NCBI GenBank assembly: GCA_913057175.1
Contig: CAJXNP010000011.1
Span: 186,001-250,000, forward strand
From: an uncultured Cytophagales bacterium
GTDB taxonomy: Bacteria > Bacteroidota > Bacteroidia > Cytophagales > Cyclobacteriaceae
Length of the DNA: 64,000 nt
Direction of reading: 5' to 3'
This document shows, one piece after another, positions 19,157-48,260 of this stretch (position 1 is the stretch's first letter; each line of letters begins with the position of its first letter). Made by a program: the position numbers and the translations under genes. The notes under the pieces were generated by a model. It made no database searches. It was not told the origin of the DNA and was given only the letters and a program-made list of their open reading frames with translations.

Positions 19157-19160
19157 GTTG

Positions 19161-19565
19161 TGGAGCTGGCGGGAGTCGAACCCGCGTCCAGATAGGGAAT
19201 CATCGTATTTTCTACATGCTTAGTTGCCAGTTGGATCTCGATGGAAAGCTGGCAGGCAACCGCCGACTAACCACCAAAGCTATCTTTAAGTTTCGCCCTC
19301 AGCCAATAGCAAACATTGGACTAGTCCTGCACATTCGACACCCCAAAAACCGGTCCGGCAGAACAAAAACCGGTGGGATGTGGCCCGGGAATCTCGCTGG
19401 AGACTCAACCGATTAAGCCTTATCTTCGCTTTATGCTAAAGATTAGGCAGCCATGGCGTAATTAGATTCGCCAATTATAGTTCGAGTGAATTGATCAAGT
19501 GTGTACACTCTCCACCCTGCATGCAAATACGCTAACCGCACCTACTGTCAAATCCAGTCAGCCCC
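19161..19565 (-). ncRNA. ssrA: Transfer-messenger RNA (tmRNA)
   Basis: A one-piece tmRNA of about 405 nt that rescues stalled ribosomes and tags their products for proteolysis. The 5' end GGGGCUG pairs with CAGCUCC at the 3' end, closing the tRNA-like acceptor, and the T-arm segment GGTTCGACTCCCGCC precedes it. The internal reading frame (about 19447-19476) encodes GESNYAMAA then TAA, close to the GEESYAMAA tag known from Cytophaga. CCA is not encoded after the discriminator A. A TAnnTTTG promoter box lies upstream and a terminator downstream. Confidence 0.95.
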
Positions 19566-34550: not shown

Positions 34551-35894
34551 ATGGACAAATGGGAAAAAGAAAAATATAAAAACCGCATTTTACTTTCATT
34601 TGATCATAAGGAAGAGCTCCGCTTTATGTCATCGGCTAAAAAAGGTGATGCACTGTTATATAGAGCGGTAACGATTATCACCATAGTTTTTACCATAGTT
34701 TTTATTTTCATCGATTACTTTAGGATTGATGAAGGTTTCCTGAATGTATTTTTTCAAAGATCCAGTATTGCAATCGCTTTTACAATCGCATATTTATATG
34801 TTACCTATGGAAAATACTCTCCTTTTACACTTCAGAAAATAATTGTTCTTACTATCTCCTTTCTTGCATTTTGTTGCTTTGCTCTTGACTATACAACATC
34901 AATGCCCGACTTTTTCCTTTCTAATACCACAGTTACAATTGGTTTTTTTGGTATAACTATAAGTGGACTGAGATTTAAAAATGGTCTAGTATTGGAAGTT
35001 GTTTTGTTTTGTGCATTTCTTTATTACACTTATTTTCTTTCTCCCAATAGCTTTCACCAATCCCAGATACCAAATATCTTCACAAATCTATCATTGGGAA
35101 TATTAATTGGGTATACACTGGAAAGGGTCAGGAGAACAGCATTCCAGAGAAGTGAAAAAATCCTAAGTCAGAATTCAGTTATCCGTTCAAAAAACAACAA
35201 CCTCAACGACCTTATTAATTCGAAAAATAAACTTATTTCAGTTCTTTCTCACGATCTGAGAAGTCCAATCAACTCTCTTAAATCCCTTATTGATATGTCT
35301 GCCTCCGGAGATATATCAAGAGAAGAATTTGAGACCTATGTAAAACAAATATCATCCAGACTTGAGCTAACGGAAAACCTGATTGAAAATCTTTTACTTT
35401 GGGCCAAATCCCAGGTTTCAGAAGTTAACATCACTCCTTACCCATTCCTACTTCAGGAAGTTATAAAAAATAATATTGCGTTTTTTATGGAAAATGCAAC
35501 AAAAAAGGGAATCAACATTGAACTCCTCAGTAGTGACAAAGATCTTATTGTTAATGCCCATCAGGATTCGATAAATATGGTAGTAAGGAACCTTCTTTCC
35601 AATGCGATAAAGTTTACTTCAGAAGGAGGAAAGGTGACCATCAGGCTTAACGAAAATGGAAAGTTTGTCGAATTTCAAATTTCAGATACAGGTGTAGGTA
35701 TCCCGCAACAAAACCTTAACAAAATTTTCGAGTATGATAATTTTACCACACTAGGCACAAAAAATGAAAAAGGCACAGGGCTCGGTTTGGCAATTTGTAA
35801 AGATTTTATTGAAAAAAACAATGGAAAGCTGATGGTGGAATCCAAACCTGATGAAGGCTCAACTTTTAGCTTTAAACTTCCCTTACACAAATAA
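34551..35894 (+). CDS. Membrane histidine kinase
   Basis: A 447-residue sensor kinase. The first 200 residues hold about six hydrophobic segments (40-56, 71-84, 96-112, 124-138, 147-161, 178-190) with no large extracellular loop, so the signal is probably sensed in or near the membrane. HisKA has phosphoacceptor H234 in LSHDLRSPI; the ATPase domain shows the N box (NLLSNAIKF), SDTGVGI and KGTGLGLAI. There is no receiver. It ends one base before the convergent rubredoxin fusion gene of the nitrate cluster. Its response regulator is not in this neighbourhood. Confidence 0.9.
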   Translation: MDKWEKEKYKNRILLSFDHKEELRFMSSAKKGDALLYRAVTIITIVFTIVFIFIDYFRIDEGFLNVFFQRSSIAIAFTIAYLYVTYGKYSPFTLQKIIVLTISFLAFCCFALDYTTSMPDFFLSNTTVTIGFFGITISGLRFKNGLVLEVVLFCAFLYYTYFLSPNSFHQSQIPNIFTNLSLGILIGYTLERVRRTAFQRSEKILSQNSVIRSKNNNLNDLINSKNKLISVLSHDLRSPINSLKSLIDMSASGDISREEFETYVKQISSRLELTENLIENLLLWAKSQVSEVNITPYPFLLQEVIKNNIAFFMENATKKGINIELLSSDKDLIVNAHQDSINMVVRNLLSNAIKFTSEGGKVTIRLNENGKFVEFQISDTGVGIPQQNLNKIFEYDNFTTLGTKNEKGTGLGLAICKDFIEKNNGKLMVESKPDEGSTFSFKLPLHK

Positions 35895-37382
35895 TCAATA
35901 TTCAATTACAGGTCGGAAATATTCCTTTCCTGATTCACAAACATGACACCTGTAATGATCAGGCAATTTTTCAAAAGGCGTTCCAGGTGAAATATTTGCC
36001 ACAGGATCTCCAAATTTTTTGTCATAAATAGTCAGGCAATTTGTGCATTGATAGCTTAAACTTTCAAGATTGATGTTTTTCTTTTTACCTTTTCCGGTAA
36101 TTATATCCTTTTCCGGATTGAGCTGTCGGAAATATATCTTACTCAATTCAATCAAAAGAGTAGGGATAATTTCTTTTTTCACACCCTGAGCATAGGTGAA
36201 ATATTCTGAATTATTGGCATTAAAATCCTTGGCATAAAGGATATTATAAATACTCTCACTTCCACTACTTAGCTCCAGGTTTTTCTCAATGACAACCGAA
36301 GTAAATAGAAGCATTTCCTTAGCAATCTTGACCGTAAATGTCAGCCCATGAGTACTGATATCCTGTTGGTCTAATTCCCTTACCAAAAATCGCTTCAAAT
36401 CCAGTGCTTCCTTATCCAGCACCGGTAGATGCCAGTTTAATTCAAGTGAAGAATGTCGCATGTTGATCCCGAACTTACCCATCAGCTTGTCCCACCGGAT
36501 CCTGTCTGACATTTTAATCCCTTTGATAATGAATGATTTCCAGGGTGTGATACTGATCTTACCGATCATTGTATCCTGGCAAAGTCGAGAAGCGGCGCTA
36601 AGAAAATCTATGGCAAATTCATTATTTCGCCAATAGAGACCTAACCAATAAAGATTATTGGGCATGGCATTCAAACCTTCATAATAGGGAAAAAAAGACT
36701 CCGGATATTTCAGTTTTTCTTCTACTTTCTTTGAGTTGATCCGGATGCTATTTTGGAGTTTTATATATATCTCTTCAACTGTAAGAAATGGGTTTTTCAA
36801 CAAAACCTCTTCAATAGCTTTGGATACCTTTGAAATGTCCTGCCCGTAAATAAGCTTGGGCCAGGCTTCCACACTGTTGTTTTTTGAACCGTTTCGAATA
36901 TATAGATACCAATACTTATCCTCTTTGGAAGCCACAAAATTTAATTCTCCTGTAAATAAAGGTACCAGGCTCTGAGCAGGGTCGACAATATTAATCTTCA
37001 GCTTTGGACGATAATCGAAAGAATCAATGATGTAATAATACGTATCTTCCTTTACCCAACTTGTGGTATCCATGATATTCACCGCTGCATAAGAACTCAC
37101 AATGTTTTGATAAACATTCTCCTCGCTTATCTCATAATCGATCTTCAATTTATCAAAGGACTCTTCGACGATCTTTTTGTCAATATCATTAATCGGAAAC
37201 ATGATATCCTGCCTGGAGCCAAATAGCACATATTTATTTCCACACATTTCTGATATTTCCATAATACCGAGAAGATCAGAAGGTGATAAAATTCCTCCAT
37301 ATACAAATACCCTTAATAGATCTTTCTTCTTAGTTTCCATTGGCTCTTTTAAACTTACCGGATATGTTTCAATTAGGTTCAT
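35895..37382 (-). CDS. Nitrite/sulfite-reductase-like protein fused to rubredoxin
   Basis: A 495-residue protein. Residues 20-435 have the two-half layout of sulfite/nitrite reductases: GSRQDIMF (55-62) resembles the first ferredoxin-like half, NIVSSYAAVNIMDT (93-106) the segment that normally carries the cluster, and KISITPWKSFIIKGI (275-289) the second half. The cysteines that bind siroheme/Fe4S4 are missing; outside the rubredoxin only C47 and C268 occur. Residues 443-490 are a rubredoxin with C446, C449, C479 and C482, binding one iron. It overlaps the nitrate reductase start codon by 4 bases and is translated with it. It may be an electron-transfer or scaffold partner rather than a nitrite reductase. 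The family reading of the N-terminal part is my inference. Confidence 0.75.
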   Translation of the reverse strand: MNLIETYPVSLKEPMETKKKDLLRVFVYGGILSPSDLLGIMEISEMCGNKYVLFGSRQDIMFPINDIDKKIVEESFDKLKIDYEISEENVYQNIVSSYAAVNIMDTTSWVKEDTYYYIIDSFDYRPKLKINIVDPAQSLVPLFTGELNFVASKEDKYWYLYIRNGSKNNSVEAWPKLIYGQDISKVSKAIEEVLLKNPFLTVEEIYIKLQNSIRINSKKVEEKLKYPESFFPYYEGLNAMPNNLYWLGLYWRNNEFAIDFLSAASRLCQDTMIGKISITPWKSFIIKGIKMSDRIRWDKLMGKFGINMRHSSLELNWHLPVLDKEALDLKRFLVRELDQQDISTHGLTFTVKIAKEMLLFTSVVIEKNLELSSGSESIYNILYAKDFNANNSEYFTYAQGVKKEIIPTLLIELSKIYFRQLNPEKDIITGKGKKKNINLESLSYQCTNCLTIYDKKFGDPVANISPGTPFEKLPDHYRCHVCESGKEYFRPVIEY

Positions 37383-40300
37383 ACCTCTATCAGTTTTTTT
37401 CGATTGAGTATTTCCTGAACTTCCGGTTTACAACTTCCACACCCCAGACCAGCTCCTGATGCTTTGCAAAGTTCCTGAAAATTATCACATCCGCCATCAA
37501 TTATCTTTTCCAAATTGCCACTGCCGACATTATTGCAAGAGCATACCAATTTGCCTATCACAGGTTCGCTCTTTTGTCCGGATCTTAGCAGCTGCATTCT
37601 TTTCTCGGATAGTTCGAGTTTACTTTCGATCATGCTCTTAAACTCGGCAAATTCAGCTTTGTCTCCTATCAAGATCGCCCCAACCAACTTATCATCTTTG
37701 ATGATACATTTTTTATAGTAGCGTACGGATTTGTCAATGAATAGAATTTCATCGTATCCTTCTCCTTCAGTAGGTATCTCGGGAATACCAATTGAGCAAA
37801 GGTCAAGGTCTGAAAATTTCAGGATATTCATCGGAATGGAGCCTTCGTAGATGTTGGATAGGTCACCATTTATATACCTGGCAGCAATATCAGCTTGCTG
37901 TTCGGCAGCTGCTGTGATACCATTTAACTTTCCCTGATGTTCTGCGATTTCCCCCATGGCAAAAATATCAGGGTCGCTTGTTTGCAGATTATCGTTGACT
38001 AGCAAGCCCCGTCCGCAATCCAAACCGGCTTCCGTTGCAATTTCAATATTAGGTCGGGTGCCTATTGCATAGACCACAGCATCCACCTGCAGCGTCTGGC
38101 CACTTTTCAATTTTGCCAGGATACCATCCTCTTTTTCGATTTTGCTGAGGGACTCTACCTGGTTATTCATGTATAACTGTATGTCTTTCTCCTCTACAAA
38201 TTCTCTCAGCATTTCTCCAGCCAATGGATCCAATTGCCTTTCCATCAACCTTGAAGAAAGCTGAACGATGGAAATCTGGATATCAATTTCTTTAAGGGCG
38301 GCGGCAAGCTCGAGACCGAGCAAGCCACCCCCTATTATGAGCACATGACCTTTCGGTCGTAGAAAAATTTTTAAGTCATCAGCGTTCTTTCTGTTCCTCA
38401 TGGTAAAGACACCTGGCATATCAACCGGTGAATCTTTGGGAACAAACGCCCGGCTGCCGGTAGCCAGAATGAGCTTATCGTAGCTATGTTTTTGACCATA
38501 TGAATCGGTGACAGTTTTGCTATTTGTGTCCAGAGCAACGATAGCGTTTTCCTGGTGAAGAAAAACATCAAGCTTTTCGAATTCATTTTCTTTGAATTTG
38601 AGAAGCTTTTCCCATGGCAATTGTTCATTCACATACTCTGGCAATAAAACCCGGTTGTAGAACGGGTGTTTTTCATTGGAGAACACATGGATCTCATCCT
38701 TCCGATTGATTTCCCGATAGGTATTGATAAAGCGGTAAGCAGCCGCTCCGGCGCCTACAATCACGATCTTTTCGTGGTGCTTCTTATACTTCGTTACTTC
38801 AACAGCTGAAAATTTGAAATCGGGCTCCTTGGAAACCGGATCATAAAGGCTACTGGTGATGTTATTCGCCCTGGCATAATCATGCCCGGCCAGTTTGCCC
38901 CAATGCATAGGAAGAAAAACCACTCCTTTCTTAATGTTTTCGGTAAGAGTAGCTGTAACTTTTACTTCACCCCGGGAATTATAGATCATGACGATATCTC
39001 CATTAAAAATCCCTCTTTCTTTCGCATCATCGGGATGTATTTCGAGAAACGGATTGGATATATGTTGCTTTAATTTGTTGACCTTTCCGGTTTTTGTCAT
39101 CGTATGCCACTGATCCCGTATCCTTCCTGTGGTGAGGATTAATGGATGTTCAGGATTTGTTTCTTCTGATGTATTCTCAGGCTGATTAAGTGGATATAGC
39201 TTCGCCTTTTTGTTGGACGTATAGAATTTCCCATCTGCAAAAAGCCGATCTGTTCCTTTTGATTGATTGGATGTGACCGGCCATTGAAACGACCCTTCTT
39301 TTTTCAGACGGTCATAAGAAAGTCCGCTAATATCAATATTGGTATTTTTAGTCAGCTGACAGTGTTCTTCGTAAACCTCATCCATTGACGAAAAGTCAAA
39401 CCCTTCATAGCCCAACTCCTTTCCAAATCTCATGATGATCTCACTGTCCGGAAACGCCTCACCTGGTGCATCAATAACTTTATTCAGATACGTTATTCGC
39501 CTTTCTGAATTTGTCATGGTTCCTTCCTTCTCCATATGGCCAGCAGCCGGCAAAACAAGGTCGGCATACTCTATCGCGAGATTTTTGCTGGATATGTCCT
39601 GAACAACTACAAACTTGGCCTTTTTCAAGGCCGCTTCTGCTTTCCTCGCGTCAGGCAAGCTTACCAATGGATTTGTACATGCAATCCAGATGGCTTTTAG
39701 CTTTCCTTCTTCCAATGCTTCAAACATTTGGGTGGCTGTCAAACCTGGTTTTTCAGGAACGGAGGGTACACCCCAAAATTCTGCCACTTCTTTTCTGTGA
39801 CTTTCGTCACTAAGGTTCCGGTGAGATGATAGCAAAGTTGCCATTCCACCTACTTCCCTACCTCCCATGGCATTTGGCTGACCAGTTAAAGAAAACGGGC
39901 CAGAACCAGGTTTACCAATATGGCCCGTTATCAAATTAAGACTGATCAATGCAATATTTTTATTTACTCCGATGCTGCTTTGGTTCAATCCCATAGCCCA
40001 CATAGTGATGAATCCCTTGGCATCAGCTATGCATTTTGCAACCAGTTTAATTTCTTCTTCTGCTACTCCACATTTTACTGCAGCAACTGACAAGCTGGTT
40101 TTCAGTACGGATTGTTTATATTCATCAAATCCATCAACATTTTTCTTGATAAATTCGATGTTGATATCTCCATTTTTTATTAATAGTCCCGCAATGGCAT
40201 GATAGAGATAGACATCTGATCCCGGGTTGATCTGAAGGTGAATATCGGATGATCCGGCAGTTTGGGTCTTCCTCGGATCAACCGTAATGATCTTGACGTT

Positions 40301-40894
40301 AGGGTTGTTTTGTTTGTGGGCTTCAATTCTTCTGAAAAGAATAGGGTGGCACCATGCAGGATTAGCGCCTGATATAAAGAATACATCTGCATGCTCAATA
40401 TCTTCATAGGAAATAGGAACAGCATCTTCACCCAATGTCTTAGCATAGCCGGCAACAGCAGAGCTCATGCATAACCGGGAATTGGTATCGATATTATTCG
40501 TTCCAATGAATCCCTTAGCCAATTTGTTGAACAGGTAATATTCCTCCGTGAGACATTGACCGGAAACATAAAACCCTACAGAATCTGGTCCATGAATTTT
40601 AACAATGGATTTGAATACGGCCGCAGCTCTTTTCAATGCTACATCCCAGCTTACGTCTTCCAATGGATGGTTTTTACTCCACCGCATTTGTGGATAAAGT
40701 AATCGGTCTGTTGTATCCTGAACGGCATAATGGAGGTTCATACCTTTTGAACACAACATACCCTTATTGACAGGATGATCCTTGTCACCCTCAACAAATA
40801 TCCTTCCTTTACGGTCTTTGTGAACCACAATCCCGCAACCAACTCCACAGTATGAACATGTGGATTTATAAGTTTCTGTTTTACCAATAATCAT
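37379..40894 (-). CDS. nasA: Assimilatory nitrate reductase fused to a NirB-like FAD module and BFD-type Fe-S domain
   Basis: A 1171-residue fusion. Residues 1-690 are a molybdenum bis-MGD nitrate reductase: C13, C16, C20 and C48 bind the Fe4S4 cluster and C142 (NSRLCMSSA) is the likely molybdenum ligand; the molydopterin-binding domain is at about 580-690. Residues 705-1080 are a NAD(P)H-FAD reductase like the N-terminus of NirB (IVIVGAGAAAYRF; second Rossmann HVLIIGGGLLGLELA). Residues 1114-1165 are a BFD-type [2Fe-2S] domain (VCSCNN ... GCGSCKPEV). It would carry electrons from NAD(P)H to nitrate in one chain in the cytoplasm. A hairpin terminator lies upstream, after narK. Confidence 0.93.
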   Translation of the reverse strand: MIIGKTETYKSTCSYCGVGCGIVVHKDRKGRIFVEGDKDHPVNKGMLCSKGMNLHYAVQDTTDRLLYPQMRWSKNHPLEDVSWDVALKRAAAVFKSIVKIHGPDSVGFYVSGQCLTEEYYLFNKLAKGFIGTNNIDTNSRLCMSSAVAGYAKTLGEDAVPISYEDIEHADVFFISGANPAWCHPILFRRIEAHKQNNPNVKIITVDPRKTQTAGSSDIHLQINPGSDVYLYHAIAGLLIKNGDINIEFIKKNVDGFDEYKQSVLKTSLSVAAVKCGVAEEEIKLVAKCIADAKGFITMWAMGLNQSSIGVNKNIALISLNLITGHIGKPGSGPFSLTGQPNAMGGREVGGMATLLSSHRNLSDESHRKEVAEFWGVPSVPEKPGLTATQMFEALEEGKLKAIWIACTNPLVSLPDARKAEAALKKAKFVVVQDISSKNLAIEYADLVLPAAGHMEKEGTMTNSERRITYLNKVIDAPGEAFPDSEIIMRFGKELGYEGFDFSSMDEVYEEHCQLTKNTNIDISGLSYDRLKKEGSFQWPVTSNQSKGTDRLFADGKFYTSNKKAKLYPLNQPENTSEETNPEHPLILTTGRIRDQWHTMTKTGKVNKLKQHISNPFLEIHPDDAKERGIFNGDIVMIYNSRGEVKVTATLTENIKKGVVFLPMHWGKLAGHDYARANNITSSLYDPVSKEPDFKFSAVEVTKYKKHHEKIVIVGAGAAAYRFINTYREINRKDEIHVFSNEKHPFYNRVLLPEYVNEQLPWEKLLKFKENEFEKLDVFLHQENAIVALDTNSKTVTDSYGQKHSYDKLILATGSRAFVPKDSPVDMPGVFTMRNRKNADDLKIFLRPKGHVLIIGGGLLGLELAAALKEIDIQISIVQLSSRLMERQLDPLAGEMLREFVEEKDIQLYMNNQVESLSKIEKEDGILAKLKSGQTLQVDAVVYAIGTRPNIEIATEAGLDCGRGLLVNDNLQTSDPDIFAMGEIAEHQGKLNGITAAAEQQADIAARYINGDLSNIYEGSIPMNILKFSDLDLCSIGIPEIPTEGEGYDEILFIDKSVRYYKKCIIKDDKLVGAILIGDKAEFAEFKSMIESKLELSEKRMQLLRSGQKSEPVIGKLVCSCNNVGSGNLEKIIDGGCDNFQELCKASGAGLGCGSCKPEVQEILNRKKLIEV

Positions 40895-40916
40895 GTGCTC
40901 AATATTATTTAGTAAG

Positions 40917-40952
40917 AAAAAACCAAACCGGAGAGATCATTTAACTCTCCGG
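40917..40952 (-). terminator. Hairpin between the transporter and nitrate reductase genes
   Basis: On the minus strand CCGGAGAG and CTCTCCGG (40945-40952 and 40928-40935) form an 8-bp stem, followed by a TTTGG-TTTTTT tract. It lies 23 bases after the transporter stop codon and 33 before nasA, so it can reduce or regulate read-through. Confidence 0.8.
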
Positions 40953-40975
40953 ATTTGTTAAACCACTTATTGGTT

Positions 40976-42334
40976 TTATTTGGATATAGGAACAACCGCA
41001 GGTTGTGTCGTTAAATTCGCTTCCAACGAAGCATCCATTTCTTTTTTGGTTTCTTTTTCATCTGCCTCAGAAAATTTGATCGCAAATGCTACAAATGAAA
41101 TACCTACTACTACCCATCCAAGTATAAACAAGGCCTGAGGATAAGTAAGTGTATCACTTTTCATTAAAAATCCTGCCGCAACAGCTCCGGCATTGCCACC
41201 AGCACCAACTATTCCGGAGATCGACCCAATTGCTTTTTTGTTAACAAATGGAACGACTGAAAAAGTTGCTCCTTCAGACATCTGGACACTCAAACTAAAC
41301 AAGATCATTGTGAAGATTGCCAGAGGCAGGACGGACATTTGAGAAAATACGATCAGCATAATGCCTTCTAACAGGAGGATTACAAAAAGGAAATAAACTC
41401 TACCTTTCAGGCCAAACTTAATTCCAAACCGGTCACCAAACATTCCACCCAATGAGCGTGCAAATATATTCATCAATCCGAAGAGACCGGCGATTAAACC
41501 GGCCGTTTTCAGATCGAGATGAAAATAATCAATGTAATAGATCGCTGCGATGTTGTTGATCGTCAACTCAACTCCAAAGCATGCTGCGTAGATCAGAAAT
41601 AACCCCCAGACACGATAGTCCTTAACTGCTACTAAAAAGGATTTTTTACTTTCCTTTTTCTTCATCTGATAGTCGGGATTATTTTTTCTAAGGTCTTTAA
41701 TATTTCCTTCAGGAGTATCCTGGGTAAATTTGTAGTAAATAATTCCCATAATAAATAGGGCAATTCCCGGAACTACCATGGCCCATCTCCATGCAGAAGC
41801 ATTGACGAAGCCCAGACCTACAAATGCGGCAAAGATCAAAGGCATTATCATTTGCGTTACGCCACCGCCCATATTTCCCCAACCTGCGGTAGTAGCATTT
41901 GCCGTTCCAACGACGTTGGGAGCAAACATTACAGAGGTGTGGTACTGCGTGATGACAAAAGAAGCGCCAATCACCCCAATCGCTAATCTAAACAACAGAA
42001 ATGATTCATAGCTGTTGGAAAGACCTATCATCATGACGGGGAGAGATCCCAATATGAGTAAGCCGGTATAGGCAATCCTCGGGCCGATCCTGTCACACAA
42101 CCATCCGATCAGCAGACGTGCTAAAACAGTAATAGCCACAGAGGCAATGATTGTATTTCCGATTTCAGCCTTCGTCAGTCCCAATTCATCCCGGACTACC
42201 GCCATCAGTGGGGCTATTCCAAACCATCCAAAGAAACACAGAAAAAATGCAAACCAGGTGATATGGAAGGTCCTCATATGAGGCGCTTTTAAACTCAGTA
42301 AATTGATTTTTGTTGCTTTTGTAATTTTACCCAT
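40976..42334 (-). CDS. narK: Nitrate/nitrite transporter (MFS, NarK/NasA type)
   Basis: A 452-residue major-facilitator transporter with 12 hydrophobic segments. The family's nitrate signature GWGNMGGGVTQ is at 151-161, and R116 in LFRLAIG corresponds to the substrate-binding arginine of NarK. The MFS loop motif after helix 2 is GWLCDRIGPR. It brings nitrate into the cell and may export nitrite. The gene is first in the nitrate operon, with a TAnnTTTG promoter box and ACGTA repeats just upstream. Confidence 0.95.
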   Translation of the reverse strand: MGKITKATKINLLSLKAPHMRTFHITWFAFFLCFFGWFGIAPLMAVVRDELGLTKAEIGNTIIASVAITVLARLLIGWLCDRIGPRIAYTGLLILGSLPVMMIGLSNSYESFLLFRLAIGVIGASFVITQYHTSVMFAPNVVGTANATTAGWGNMGGGVTQMIMPLIFAAFVGLGFVNASAWRWAMVVPGIALFIMGIIYYKFTQDTPEGNIKDLRKNNPDYQMKKKESKKSFLVAVKDYRVWGLFLIYAACFGVELTINNIAAIYYIDYFHLDLKTAGLIAGLFGLMNIFARSLGGMFGDRFGIKFGLKGRVYFLFVILLLEGIMLIVFSQMSVLPLAIFTMILFSLSVQMSEGATFSVVPFVNKKAIGSISGIVGAGGNAGAVAAGFLMKSDTLTYPQALFILGWVVVGISFVAFAIKFSEADEKETKKEMDASLEANLTTQPAVVPISK

Positions 42335-42739: not shown

Positions 42740-44785
42740 ATGTGGACGGGAAGATGTTTTTATTCTTATAGGAAAATATTATTTATTTTTTTCCTCCTTA
42801 TCACCTGTTTTGCCAGTATCGGGCAATCAGGGGTACTGGATTTGCGAGACACTTCGCTAGAAGAGGATATGGTCCTCTTGCAAAAATCCTGGCAATTTCA
42901 TGTTCATCATTTTTTAAAACCTGATCAAACAGACACTGCACATTGGGAAAATGTAGACTTGCCACAACGATGGGATCGAATGTCCTGGAAAGACAACAAG
43001 ATACCTCAATTTGGCATCATGACTTACAAGCTGGTTGTCTTGCTGCCTAATGATCACCCTCCACTTGGTATCAAGCTTTATGAATCTCTTTCTGCCCATA
43101 AACTATTTGTTAATGGTGAATTGCTGGACGAAAATGGAAAGATCTCAAAACAAAAAGAAAGCGAACAACCTTCTTACAATAATCAAATTATACCCATTCC
43201 AAAAAAATTATCCTCCAAAGACACTTTACAGATCATATTGCATGTTTCTAATTGGAATTATGTTTATGGAGGAATAAAGAGCAACGTTTATTTAGGTGAC
43301 CTGAAATATTTGGAAGAAAATAAGGAAAAAAAGATTGCCGTAAGCGGACTATTATTAGGGGCTATATTTTTGCTGGGTATTTCACAATTCATCCTTTTTG
43401 CATTCAGAAGGGAAAGCTACTACTACCTCTGTCTGACATTGGTCTCATTCACGCTTTTCTTACGCTTAGCTTCCGTAGATGAAATGATTATCAAGATCCT
43501 TCTTCCAAACCTAAACCATCATACTTTGCTGGATATCAGGTGGATTACTACCTATCTGGCACTTCCTGCCACATTACTTTTCATTTATACATTTTATACA
43601 AAATATACCAAAAAATGGATCCTGGTATTCAGCTGGGTTTTTGCTATGATCCATGTAATAGCTGTTTTCATAGTTCCATATACATCGAAGATCTACCTGG
43701 CATATCATTTTCATATTTTCATGGTTTTAGGAGCAATTTATATTGTGTACGTGTGCGTTGTTGCTGCCAGAAAAAAAGAACTTGGCGCCCGAACACTTAT
43801 CGTAGGATTACTAATAACTATACCGCTAATGGTCGTCGATATCCTATATGCACAATTACTTTCTCCTATTGGAAATGTTATCGGATGGGGTATCATATTC
43901 TTTTTTCTGGCACTATTTACCGTAACAGCCAAACGGTTTTCCCTGGCATTGAGAAATGAAGAAAAACTGACGGCTGAATTATCAAATGTCAACAAAAACC
44001 TTGAAGAAATTGTTGAAGTGCGCACCCGCCATATTGAAGAAAAGAATGTGTTGATTGAGGAGCAAAAAGAAGTTTTACAAAACCAACATGATAGTTTAAA
44101 GCTTTTATTGAAAGATCAGGAAACGCTAATGGCGATGATCGCTCATGACCTGAAAGCCCCTCTAAATCGCGCCGCCGGTTTAGCGGAAGTCCTTTCATTA
44201 TCAGGAGAATTGTCAGATGACCAGCTTGCTTTGAACAAAAAGATCATAGAGGTCGCCCATTCCGGCAGCAAACTAATTGAACAACTCACAATGCTTCAAA
44301 AATATGAGCAAAGCGAGGACAATCTCAAGATGGAAAAATGTGAAATTGACAAGCTATTATCAGACCAGTTGGAAGGCTATGAAAAATCAGCTACAGACAA
44401 AAAGATCAAGTTAATCTCCAATTTAAACGGCCCAATCGTCTTTAAAACCAATAAGGATGCACTATCCCGAATATTGGACAATCTCATTTCCAATGCCATT
44501 AAGTTCAGTCCGCCATATGGAACGATCAAAATAGACACATCATTATCCGAAAAAGAGTTGGTAATAAAGATTACCGACGAAGGACCCGGATTTACTCACG
44601 AAGATAAGGAAAAGCTTTTCGGTAAATTCCAACGGCTGTCTGCCCAGCCTACCGGTGGTGAAAGCTCAACGGGGTTAGGACTGAGCATTATTAAAATCCT
44701 TGTCGATAAACTGGAAGGTAAGATCAAATTAAAAAGCAAACCTGGCCAGGGCGCGACTTTTATCCTTCACTTTCCCATTAAATAG
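42740..44785 (+). CDS. 7TM-DISM sensor histidine kinase
   Basis: A 681-residue kinase. A signal segment is followed by an exported beta-sandwich domain (about 30-190: GVLDLRDTSLEED, WQFHVHHFL, LFVNGELLDENGK), then seven membrane helices of the 7TMR-DISM type (about 200-400), a coiled coil (410-460), HisKA with phosphoacceptor H469 (IAHDLKAPL) and a full ATPase domain (STGLGLSI). The exported domain resembles the sugar-binding 7TMR-DISMED1 fold, so a carbohydrate or related ligand is possible. It is divergent from the nitrate operon and has no adjacent response regulator. The start is uncertain within a few codons. Confidence 0.9.
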   Translation: MWTGRCFYSYRKILFIFFLLITCFASIGQSGVLDLRDTSLEEDMVLLQKSWQFHVHHFLKPDQTDTAHWENVDLPQRWDRMSWKDNKIPQFGIMTYKLVVLLPNDHPPLGIKLYESLSAHKLFVNGELLDENGKISKQKESEQPSYNNQIIPIPKKLSSKDTLQIILHVSNWNYVYGGIKSNVYLGDLKYLEENKEKKIAVSGLLLGAIFLLGISQFILFAFRRESYYYLCLTLVSFTLFLRLASVDEMIIKILLPNLNHHTLLDIRWITTYLALPATLLFIYTFYTKYTKKWILVFSWVFAMIHVIAVFIVPYTSKIYLAYHFHIFMVLGAIYIVYVCVVAARKKELGARTLIVGLLITIPLMVVDILYAQLLSPIGNVIGWGIIFFFLALFTVTAKRFSLALRNEEKLTAELSNVNKNLEEIVEVRTRHIEEKNVLIEEQKEVLQNQHDSLKLLLKDQETLMAMIAHDLKAPLNRAAGLAEVLSLSGELSDDQLALNKKIIEVAHSGSKLIEQLTMLQKYEQSEDNLKMEKCEIDKLLSDQLEGYEKSATDKKIKLISNLNGPIVFKTNKDALSRILDNLISNAIKFSPPYGTIKIDTSLSEKELVIKITDEGPGFTHEDKEKLFGKFQRLSAQPTGGESSTGLGLSIIKILVDKLEGKIKLKSKPGQGATFILHFPIK

Positions 44786-44864: not shown

Positions 44865-45512
44865 ATGGAAGTAAAATCTGTGAATCTTTCGTCGCCTAGA
44901 ATTGTACATTGGAAAGGAAAAGAAGTGGAAACCGGCATATACAAGTATCCTGTTCAAGAAAGCATTCAGCTTGGAACATTCGGAGTTGCTAAGGATCATG
45001 TAGCCGATCTCAAAGTGCATGGCGGCATCGACAAATCATGTTATTTCTATTCTGCAGATCATTATGAATACTGGAAATCATTGTACCCCGATCTTGATTG
45101 GAATTGGGGAATGCTTGGTGAAAATATTACGGTAGAAGGACTGGAAGAAAGTAAAATACATATTGGGGATGTGTATGAAATTGGCGAAGCACATATTCAG
45201 ATTTCTCAACCACGACAGCCATGTTTCAAGCTAGGTATTAAATTCGGTACACAGAAAATCCTGAGAGATTTTATAAACAAAGGTTGGCCGGGCTGCTATG
45301 CAAGAGTGATAAAGGAAGGAAAAGTGGAGGTTGGGGACAAAATGTCATTGATCATCCGTTCAAAAAGTAGCCAGTCTGTTCAGGATATTTTCAAGATGCT
45401 TTATTCAGATGATTTTGAAAGAATAAAAATAGAGAATGCTGTGCATGATGGAAATCTTGCTCAAAGTGTCAGGCAGCAACTTTTGCCAAAACTGGAAAGA
45501 TCAGCCAGGTAA
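44865..45512 (+). CDS. MOSC domain protein (YiiM-like)
   Basis: A 215-residue MOSC protein. The core shows the KVHGGIDKSCYFYSADHYEYW segment, GENITVEGL, and the conserved cysteine C120 in SQPRQPCFKLG; the C-terminal third is a helical 3-alpha extension. MOSC proteins carry or reduce molybdenum-cofactor-dependent substrates; YiiM-like members use Moco to reduce N-hydroxylated compounds. Its place beside a molybdenum-dependent nitrate reductase cluster fits. It overlaps the convergent hydrolase gene by 12 bases. Confidence 0.9.
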   Translation: MEVKSVNLSSPRIVHWKGKEVETGIYKYPVQESIQLGTFGVAKDHVADLKVHGGIDKSCYFYSADHYEYWKSLYPDLDWNWGMLGENITVEGLEESKIHIGDVYEIGEAHIQISQPRQPCFKLGIKFGTQKILRDFINKGWPGCYARVIKEGKVEVGDKMSLIIRSKSSQSVQDIFKMLYSDDFERIKIENAVHDGNLAQSVRQQLLPKLERSAR

Positions 45513-46718: not shown

Positions 46719-48260
46719 TCAAGGTTCCGCTACAAACCAAACATTTCCTACACCCTCACCAGTAGTTAACCCCCTGGCCCCATCAGCTGCATAATAATAC
46801 AAAGGTTGGCCTTGATAAGTGAATTGCATGTCATCATCAGACCTCGTTATAGAAGAAAAATCTTCAGTTGAAATAGTTGAAGGCAAATTCACCTCACTAT
46901 CAAGGTAAAACACAGGCCAATTATCCACACATGATCCTGTACAATTACTTACATCTTCTGTGTCATTCGTGAAAATATACAAGGTATTTCCTTCAGCATC
47001 GACGAAATATTTCACAGCACCTTCCCCTTCATTCACTTCCTGATTGGCAATCATCACGGTATAATCGGGCTTGGCCACATACCAGATTTCACCTATGCCT
47101 TCTCCTCCTGTTTCTCCTGCTGCTGCATCAGCAGCGAAGTAATAAAGCGGCCAGCCCTTGTAGGTAGTTTGTATATTTTCCCCCTCGCCTGTTATTCCAA
47201 AATCACCTGCATCGAGGGAAGATTCTTCCGACAATACAATTTCTTCGACATAAAACCTTGGCCAGTTGTCCAGGCAAGTACCAGAACAATTGCTTTCACC
47301 ATTTGGATCGTTTGAAAAGAAATACAATGTCATACCCTCTGCATCAGTCAGAATATTGCCTAAGGTTTCATTTTCCGCCACCCCAATCGTCGGTTCGGAC
47401 GGTTCCTCTCCTTCAGGCGCCGGATCTGTGCTGGTATTGACAACCGGCCATACACCGGGAGTCGGCACACTAACTCCTTTATTTTCTCCACGATTTTCAT
47501 CCCCAATGAAATAATACAAAGGCCAGCCTTTGTAAGTCAGCTGGCTTTCACCAAATACATCGATGGTTCCGAAATCATCTGCATTAATCGTGCTGGGCAA
47601 GGAACTAATATCGGTATGAAAGATCGGCCAGGTGGCATTATTGCTAAAATCTTCTTCCGTATAGTTATTTTGATCTTGTGTGTCATTTATAAAAGCATAA
47701 AGTGTCCTTCCAAAGGAATCCACAAAATACTGTGTTTCGCCATCGCCAGGCTCATAATCACCTGTATAATTCACACCATCGTTTCCGACCAATTGTGCAT
47801 TGGCCAGCATGATGGAATAATCGGGTTTGCCAACGAACCAGACATTTCCAACTCCTTCACCATTTGTCTGTCCGGCAGCGTTATCACTTGCATAGTAATA
47901 AAGCGGCCAGCCTTTGTAGGTGGTCTGCATGTCACCATCTCCTCGTGTAATGGTGCCAAAATCAGCCTCATCTAATCCGGTGCCGGCGTCAATGGACGAG
48001 ACATGAAAAGCTGGCCAGGTTGAAAGACAGGAACCTTCACAAGCGCTTTCCCCGCTCACATCACGTGTAAAGAAATATAAGGTGAAACCATCCCCATCCA
48101 CCAGGATTCCGTCGTCAAGCTGAACATTAGGTCCATCGCCATTTCCACCCGGATCCGGATCTTCATCATCATTGTCACATCCTGAAAACTGGAACAACAT
48201 AAGGGCTGTCATCATAAGAACAGCCAAGAATTGAATATTTTTCTTAATTGAGATTGTCAT
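46719..48260 (-). CDS. Four-repeat secreted lipoprotein (PF03640-like)
   Basis: A 513-residue protein with lipobox-type FQFSGC and an acidic, glycine-rich spacer (DNDDEDPDPGGNGDG). Four repeats of about 100-110 residues follow, each with an LYxFxxD strand, a WPxF segment and TYKGWPLYYFxxD. Repeats 1, 3 and 4 carry a C-x-x-x-C pair just before WPxF (CEGSC, CSGTC, CTGSC); repeat 2 lacks it. This is the secreted repeat of COG4315 lipoproteins, whose role is unknown; the paired cysteines suggest disulphides. It has its own terminator. The start is the ATG at 48260 or one of several codons downstream. Confidence 0.88.
   Translation of the reverse strand: MTISIKKNIQFLAVLMMTALMLFQFSGCDNDDEDPDPGGNGDGPNVQLDDGILVDGDGFTLYFFTRDVSGESACEGSCLSTWPAFHVSSIDAGTGLDEADFGTITRGDGDMQTTYKGWPLYYYASDNAAGQTNGEGVGNVWFVGKPDYSIMLANAQLVGNDGVNYTGDYEPGDGETQYFVDSFGRTLYAFINDTQDQNNYTEEDFSNNATWPIFHTDISSLPSTINADDFGTIDVFGESQLTYKGWPLYYFIGDENRGENKGVSVPTPGVWPVVNTSTDPAPEGEEPSEPTIGVAENETLGNILTDAEGMTLYFFSNDPNGESNCSGTCLDNWPRFYVEEIVLSEESSLDAGDFGITGEGENIQTTYKGWPLYYFAADAAAGETGGEGIGEIWYVAKPDYTVMIANQEVNEGEGAVKYFVDAEGNTLYIFTNDTEDVSNCTGSCVDNWPVFYLDSEVNLPSTISTEDFSSITRSDDDMQFTYQGQPLYYYAADGARGLTTGEGVGNVWFVAEP

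Follow-up and report, generated by a model that had tools for sequence, protein, structure and literature searches.

In a 64,000-nucleotide stretch of contig CAJXNP010000011.1 from an uncultured Cytophagales bacterium (hereafter the window), two overlapping genes on the minus strand encode a putative nitrate reductase fused to its own flavin and iron-sulfur modules (P0002, 37379–40894, 1171 aa; hereafter the fusion) and a companion with a reductase-fold body and a C-terminal rubredoxin (P0001, 35895–37382, 495 aa; hereafter RNP). We propose, with a probability of roughly 45%, that the two work together in nitrate assimilation in Bacteroidota and Balneolota, with RNP docking on the fusion and contributing its rubredoxin as an additional electron relay. 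Many relatives have both genes together, which makes RNP a probable functional component of nitrate assimilation and not the broken half of another enzyme. If this is true, a common Bacteroidota nitrate-assimilation system has a third component masked by the annotation "rubredoxin", and RNP would plainly exemplify a siroheme reductase that became a partner protein without cofactors. It could then be tested why flavin adenine dinucleotide (FAD) and a [2Fe-2S] cluster within the nitrate reductase itself do not make another electron carrier or a chaperone superfluous.

The fusion matches the Pfam families Molybdop_Fe4S4 (residues 7–58), Molybdopterin (64–491) and Molydop_binding (585–694), followed by Pyr_redox_2 (709–998), Rubredoxin_C (1021–1092) and Fer2_BFD (1116–1164), which bears out the initial annotation of a nitrate reductase with a NirB-like FAD module and a BFD domain. 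It divides into a domain for [4Fe-4S] and molybdenum bis-molybdopterin guanine dinucleotide (1–704), a NirB-like FAD/NAD(P)H module (705–1108) and a BFD [2Fe-2S] domain (1109–1171), with ligand motifs in CxxCxxxC..C (13–48), in NSRLCM with Cys142 and in the BFD cysteines (1118–1155). NSRLCM occupies the Mo site in 115 of 116 fusions; a Cys-Met pair there presumably marks the Nas/Nap type, and Sec/Cys-His formate dehydrogenase. The best PDB match by phmmer is a periplasmic nitrate reductase (452 bits). Scores stay under the cut-offs of the curated NCBIfam NasC/NasA models (NF047855, 520.7 versus 1100; NF041323, 489.5 versus 1000), and the formate dehydrogenase alpha model TIGR01591 outscores these at 590.1, itself also below its cut-off of 666.25. 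On the grounds of the NSRLCM motif, the PDB match and a NarK-family nitrate/nitrite transporter of the major facilitator superfamily directly upstream (40976–42334, minus strand; TIGR00886 score of 307.7 bits, slightly below the cut-off of 311.7), we favor a Nas/Nap-type molybdenum nitrate reductase over a formate dehydrogenase. The electron chain envisaged at the outset, from NAD(P)H through FAD and [2Fe-2S] to Mo, is plausible, its parts all lying inside the fusion. NasA/NasC systems, such as Paracoccus NasBGC, share the Mo enzyme, the N-terminal [4Fe-4S] cluster, a NarK-type neighbor and the path from NAD(P)H over FAD to Fe-S, but they use a separate flavoprotein or the NasG ferredoxin, whereas here FAD and [2Fe-2S] are fused to the Mo subunit.

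Fold and lost cofactor sites of RNP

RNP comprises a sulfite/nitrite reductase-fold body without cofactor ligands (about 20–424), a low-confidence linker (429–439) and a rubredoxin (442–492). Pfam recognizes the rubredoxin (PF00301, 444–489, 57.4 bits, cut-off 23), with its two CxxC pairs at C446/C449 and C479/C482, and two NIR_SIR_ferr half-domain stretches in the body that reach 39.5 bits together (cut-off 24), the second alone being weak (16.4). NIR_SIR (PF01077) has no match in P0001 at E ≤ 1 and none at the locus in a whole-genome search at E ≤ 10, and PF02613 (NarJ/TorD) has none in P0001 at E ≤ 1. An AlphaFold model built from the window protein and 55 of the 80 named relatives described below has a mean predicted local distance difference test score of 88.1 and a predicted template modeling score of 0.79. 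By VIA-align its body (about 22–424) superposes on the E. coli sulfite reductase hemoprotein (SiRHP, 3aop) with Z 29.0 over 374 residues at 3.3 Å and 15–16% identity, on tobacco and spinach (2akj) nitrite reductases with Z of about 25.5 and on NirA (1zj8) with Z 24.7, while residues of about 441–494 align with rubredoxin chains (Z of about 10, root-mean-square deviation 0.7–1.9 Å). Foldseek concurs, and sulfite/nitrite reductase entries head the list of structural matches, a list that speaks for these families and leaves those missing from it unjudged. Profile comparison by hhalign with 16 sulfite/nitrite reductases gives 96.7 and 96.9% (E 3.4e-10 and 1.4e-10) over 395 columns. On the predicted model, the body is a two-fold repeated sulfite/nitrite reductase fold over its whole length. 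The reductase-like region proposed from the letters alone (residues 20–435) thus superposes on SiRHP/NirA and not on an unrelated fold, profile comparison with siroheme reductase families agrees at E of about 1e-10, and the rubredoxin is confirmed by both Pfam and the model.

The cofactor sites of this fold are lost. Residues were mapped with E. coli CysI as the reference row onto two RNP alignments, A1 (29 rows) and A2 (56 rows), with full columns recounted. We take SiRHP C434, C440, C479 and C483 to bind [4Fe-4S] and bridge siroheme, and R83, R153, K215 and K217 to be the basic residues that bind substrate; the four cysteines are invariant in a further alignment, A3, together with R83, R117, R153, N154 and K215. 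In all 29 and 56 rows of RNP, the columns of C434, C440 and C479 hold Leu/Met/Val, variable residues or a gap and never Cys, the exact partner column of C434/C440 differing between the two alignments; C483 maps to a gap. Likewise, the R153 column holds Gln, Asn, Pro, Glu, His and others but never Arg in either alignment. The stretch where the cluster cysteines map (310–385) is Cys-free in 21/29 rows of A1 and 52/56 of A2, the other 8 and 4 rows having scattered Cys (four in one relative, L068), and the whole body of the window protein has two cysteines. Since the cluster cysteines and Arg153 are gone, RNP should not be a siroheme reductase.

Other positions of the old site are retained. Arg57 (SiRHP R117) and Asn93 (N154) are invariant in A1 and A2, Arg24 (R83) is Arg in 56/56 rows of A2 and 23/29 of A1, and Lys is kept at K217 in 46/56 and 26/29 and at K215 in 33/56 and 14/29, respectively. 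Among 20 rows thinned from A1, the most conserved body segments are TPWKSFII, RHSSLELNWH, PLFTGELNF and YWLGLYWRNN. The alignment would place the first two near the old active site, and that side therefore looks constrained rather than decayed. Both rubredoxin CxxC pairs are retained in 28/29 rows of A1 and 56/56 of A2. RNP thus shares the whole body and the two-fold repeat with NirA/CysI but differs from them by the absence of the cluster/siroheme cysteines and Arg153 and by the added rubredoxin.

Distribution, gene order and covariation of the pair

We searched 395 genomes of the phylum for RNP, the fusion and NirB alike (E ≤ 0.001 for P0001, E ≤ 1e-200 for the fusion, E ≤ 1e-150 for NirB). 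P0001 was matched in 122 genomes and over about 400 or more body residues in 29, the genome of the window included; the remaining listed matches lie in the rubredoxin part, as do those of longer frames in two genomes (G087, G005). The fusion was found in 33 genomes and NirB in 28, the latter being, at these cut-offs, exactly the 28 in which fusion and RNP occur together. The 29th RNP (genome G126) has no rubredoxin and sits where its contig begins; no match to the fusion or to NirB reached the cut-offs in that genome. A scan of named genomes with the single protein P0001 returned no relatives; with alignment A1 it returned at least 589 confirmed ones, among them members of Cyclobacterium, Echinicola and Algoriphagus, and the best 80 were kept. 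Recurrence on this scale is well in excess of chance. The full fusion lies upstream of RNP in 79 of these 80, and the last locus (L152) shows the FAD/BFD tail only, at a contig edge.

Together with 27 loci from the sample, this gives 107 loci with fusion and RNP, and in every one of them RNP comes after the fusion in the same orientation. The rubredoxin is recognized in 105, the other two keeping the CxxC pairs in a shortened tail, and the fetched stretch contains a NarK-like match in 70. The initial annotation gave correct coordinates for both genes and called them translationally coupled. This stands for the window, where the fusion stop and the RNP start overlap by 4 nt as ATGA (37379–37382, minus strand; confirmed from the sequence), but not for the relatives at large, in which the gap is at most 30 nt in only 57 of the 107 loci, 31–350 nt in 46 and longer in 4. 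Among the 40 matches listed out of 813 plasmid records, an undivided fusion accompanied by RNP occurs in four, all from Bacteroidota, and the other 36 match in two or three pieces; in the non-Bacteroidota matches nirB is a gene of its own where annotated, as the listing of matches, rather than the genes themselves, indicates. A Caballeronia plasmid "rubredoxin" matching residues 367–489 was set aside as a small gene (139 codons with the stop) in an unrelated context.

Judged by evolutionary rates, RNP appears more closely tied to the fused nitrate reductase than to NirB or NarK. Protein distances were compared across 28 genomes with RpoB removed, and the RNP body then correlates at 0.79 with NasA, 0.82 with FAD/BFD and 0.57 with NirB. 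With RpoB and NirB removed, the partial correlations are still 0.70 with NasA and 0.73 with FAD/BFD, and the RNP body–NirB value after removal of RpoB, NasA and FAD/BFD is –0.32. A set of 61 loci with only one NarK-like open reading frame (ORF) of 400–530 aa was reduced to 43 by removing near-copies; there, the RNP–fusion correlation given NarK is 0.80 and the RNP–NarK correlation given the fusion is 0.15.

The model that we favor is that the fusion would be a self-sufficient NAD(P)H nitrate reductase, with electrons passing from NAD(P)H to FAD, the BFD [2Fe-2S], [4Fe-4S] and Mo. RNP, a presumably repurposed sulfite/nitrite reductase fold with its siroheme and [4Fe-4S] ligands lost and conserved segments at the presumed old active site, would bind to it in the manner of a siroheme hemoprotein and its flavin/Fe-S partner. 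The rubredoxin would add a one-electron relay that steadies the electron supply to the Mo center, and the nitrite would then be reduced by a separate NirBD. We favor docking and relay because the rubredoxin cysteines are near-constant and the body has what we infer to be a fold that docks on a flavin/Fe-S donor; the domains, the predicted fold, the ligand loss, the conserved pairing and the rate covariation with the fusion are shown, whereas the physical complex and the relay role are inferred. More specifically, and more tentatively, a siroheme-reductase fold stripped of siroheme and Fe-S and fused to a rubredoxin may have become a dedicated docking subunit that relays electrons to the Mo nitrate reductase, a pseudo-enzyme carrier in nitrate assimilation throughout Bacteroidota and Balneolota.

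Several observations weigh against this model. Five of the 33 fusion genomes lack RNP genome-wide, which suggests that the fusion's own electron chain does not depend on it. In two relatives (L066, L069) the rubredoxin is shortened and unrecognized by Pfam, and a third (L070) has none. The fused FAD module contains PF18267, the C-terminal domain of rubredoxin-NAD+ reductases, which was counted for a rubredoxin partner, but PF18267 is present in NirB too and hence is no proof of one. NirB follows NasA more closely (0.84, RpoB removed) than RNP does; strong covariation is therefore no special feature of RNP, and genes that are neighbors or are transferred together could give the same signal without contact. 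Finally, divergence of the RNP body is about double that of NasA (mean distances of 0.93 and 0.43).

In the five RNP-less genomes (L154–L158), a NirA-like reductase (PF01077) adjoins the fusion in all five and no NirB passed the cut-off. Neighboring ORFs include a flavodoxin in three (L154, L155, L157) and an FAD/NAD-binding flavoprotein in four (L154–L157), neither being picked out in L158 among the selected ORFs given to Pfam. In this alternative nitrate operon, the flavodoxin and flavoprotein genes share an N-terminal motif like APFTPEQRAWLN.

Alternative roles for RNP

The main rival, nearly as good, is that RNP is a maturation factor of the fusion, a chaperone in NarJ's place that would hold the apo-enzyme while its Fe-S and Mo cofactors are loaded; the rubredoxin would serve in assembly. 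NarJ is a helical chaperone unrelated to RNP, and the cyanobacterial NarM and NirB are accessory proteins of nitrate and nitrite reductases that may resemble RNP in function. In the Paracoccus system, NasG, a ferredoxin, is proposed to feed both NasC and NasB with electrons, and maturation of NasC is the task of NarJ (PMC6618116, PMC4724949). By analogy, RNP could play either a NasG-like or a NarJ-like part, the latter making NarJ a possible functional counterpart as a reductase accessory protein (PMC6618116). Without NarJ, Paracoccus NasC is not active, and the nas cluster itself contains no such chaperone (PMC6618116). A cofactor-free enzyme fold would suit a chaperone, and there is precedent for a rubredoxin in assembly, as the accumulation of photosystem II requires one (PMC3772215). 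PF02613 passes its cut-off in 0/29 RNP genomes versus 2/5 RNP-less fusion genomes; the sole match in the genome of the window, at 20.3 bits, falls short of the cut-off of 22.2 and is interrupted by stops. However, 3/5 RNP-less fusion genomes are also without a NarJ match, so neither type of dedicated chaperone is indispensable, and near-constant rubredoxin cysteines suit electron transfer at least equally. We regard maturation as somewhat unlikely. Public annotation names RNP "rubredoxin" and the fusion "nitrate reductase". Among the best-ranked papers of our searches of the open-access literature, none was recognizable as a description of RNP; PMC4315400, in the part drawn on here, covers nasA diversity only and not RNP.

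A second alternative is that RNP serves NirBD, as a siroheme/Fe-S carrier, a scaffold or a coupler of nitrite or electrons between both reductases. The coincidence of NirB with fusion plus RNP in the sample, the presence of a NirA-like reductase beside the fusion, with no NirB over the cut-off, in the five RNP-less genomes, the correlation of NirB rates with those of NasA and RNP, the retention of some basic residues of the SiRHP site and the position of cobA after RNP in Hymenobacter volaticus would all fit such a role. However, on the fusion tree the presence of RNP needs one change, so the co-occurrence with NirB is a single event, and we rejected it as evidence of a NirB function on this ground and because the rate test points the opposite way: RNP rates do not track NirB once the fusion is accounted for. 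In addition, nirBD lies on another contig in the genome of the window, and RNP stands behind the fusion at every locus with both. Service to NirBD is accordingly quite unlikely.

It is most improbable that RNP is itself an active siroheme nitrite or sulfite reductase with unusual ligands. Besides the full-length fold likeness and the basic residues kept, one could invoke a CxxC in the body (C268 invariant in A1 and A2; C265 in 28/29 and 52/56 rows), but neither position is at a mapped ligand site and the window protein has Ser265, hence SxxC. Moreover, the mapped ligand columns are devoid of Cys, residues 310–385 are mostly so, PF01077 finds no match, and genuine siroheme reductases are encoded elsewhere in the genome.

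The initial annotation read the two genes as a split NirB, its halves redistributed over both. FAD, BFD and reductase-like parts are indeed all present by Pfam, the C-terminal part of the fusion has the NirB order of FAD, Rubredoxin_C and BFD, and the fusion scores 339.7 bits against TIGR02374, the model of NirB as the large subunit of NADH nitrite reductase (model positions 1–468 of 794; cut-off 578.35). However, the fusion lacks the siroheme domain of NirB, and by Pfam and whole-genome search this domain is in neither P0001 nor P0002; with the siroheme/4Fe-4S cysteines and Arg153 missing, RNP cannot be expected to supply the catalytic half. The same genome encodes a complete 832-aa NirB (FAD, BFD and siroheme domain) and NirD on contig C13, as well as a separate sulfite reductase on contig C10. 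NirB has one NIR_SIR_ferr and one NIR_SIR domain, whereas the RNP body matches full-length, two-repeat SiRHP/NirA. In a tree of FAD modules, read only as an unrooted split because its outgroup, NorW, was truncated to 195 aa and sits on a very long branch, ten Bacteroidota/Balneolota NirB and E. coli NirB fall on one side and 18 fused modules on the other (Shimodaira–Hasegawa-like approximate likelihood ratio support of 93). With an intact NirBD, another repeat architecture, lost ligands and a separate FAD lineage, the split can hardly be maintained.

Neighboring genes in the window

A hairpin followed by a T run lies between narK and the fusion (40895–40975). It was considered as an attenuator, and a similar element was found upstream of 2/79 fusions versus 14/811 control ORFs; a genome search for ANTAR proteins at E ≤ 1 was negative. 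Given its rarity upstream of other fusions and the lack of an ANTAR protein, we take it as an ordinary terminator. Divergent from narK, a 7TMR-DISM sensor histidine kinase (42740–44785, plus strand) is a possible regulator of the operon, and a second histidine kinase (34551–35894, plus strand) abuts the RNP stop base to base. A MOSC-domain protein, of a family linked with molybdenum-cofactor chemistry, is encoded near the Mo nitrate reductase at 44865–45512 (plus strand). Further along, 46719–48260 (minus strand) encodes a secreted-looking protein with four similar repeats, which two recurring motifs place about 115–128 residues apart. Elsewhere in the window, a transfer-messenger RNA gene at 19158–19565 (minus strand) specifies the tag GESNYAMAA.

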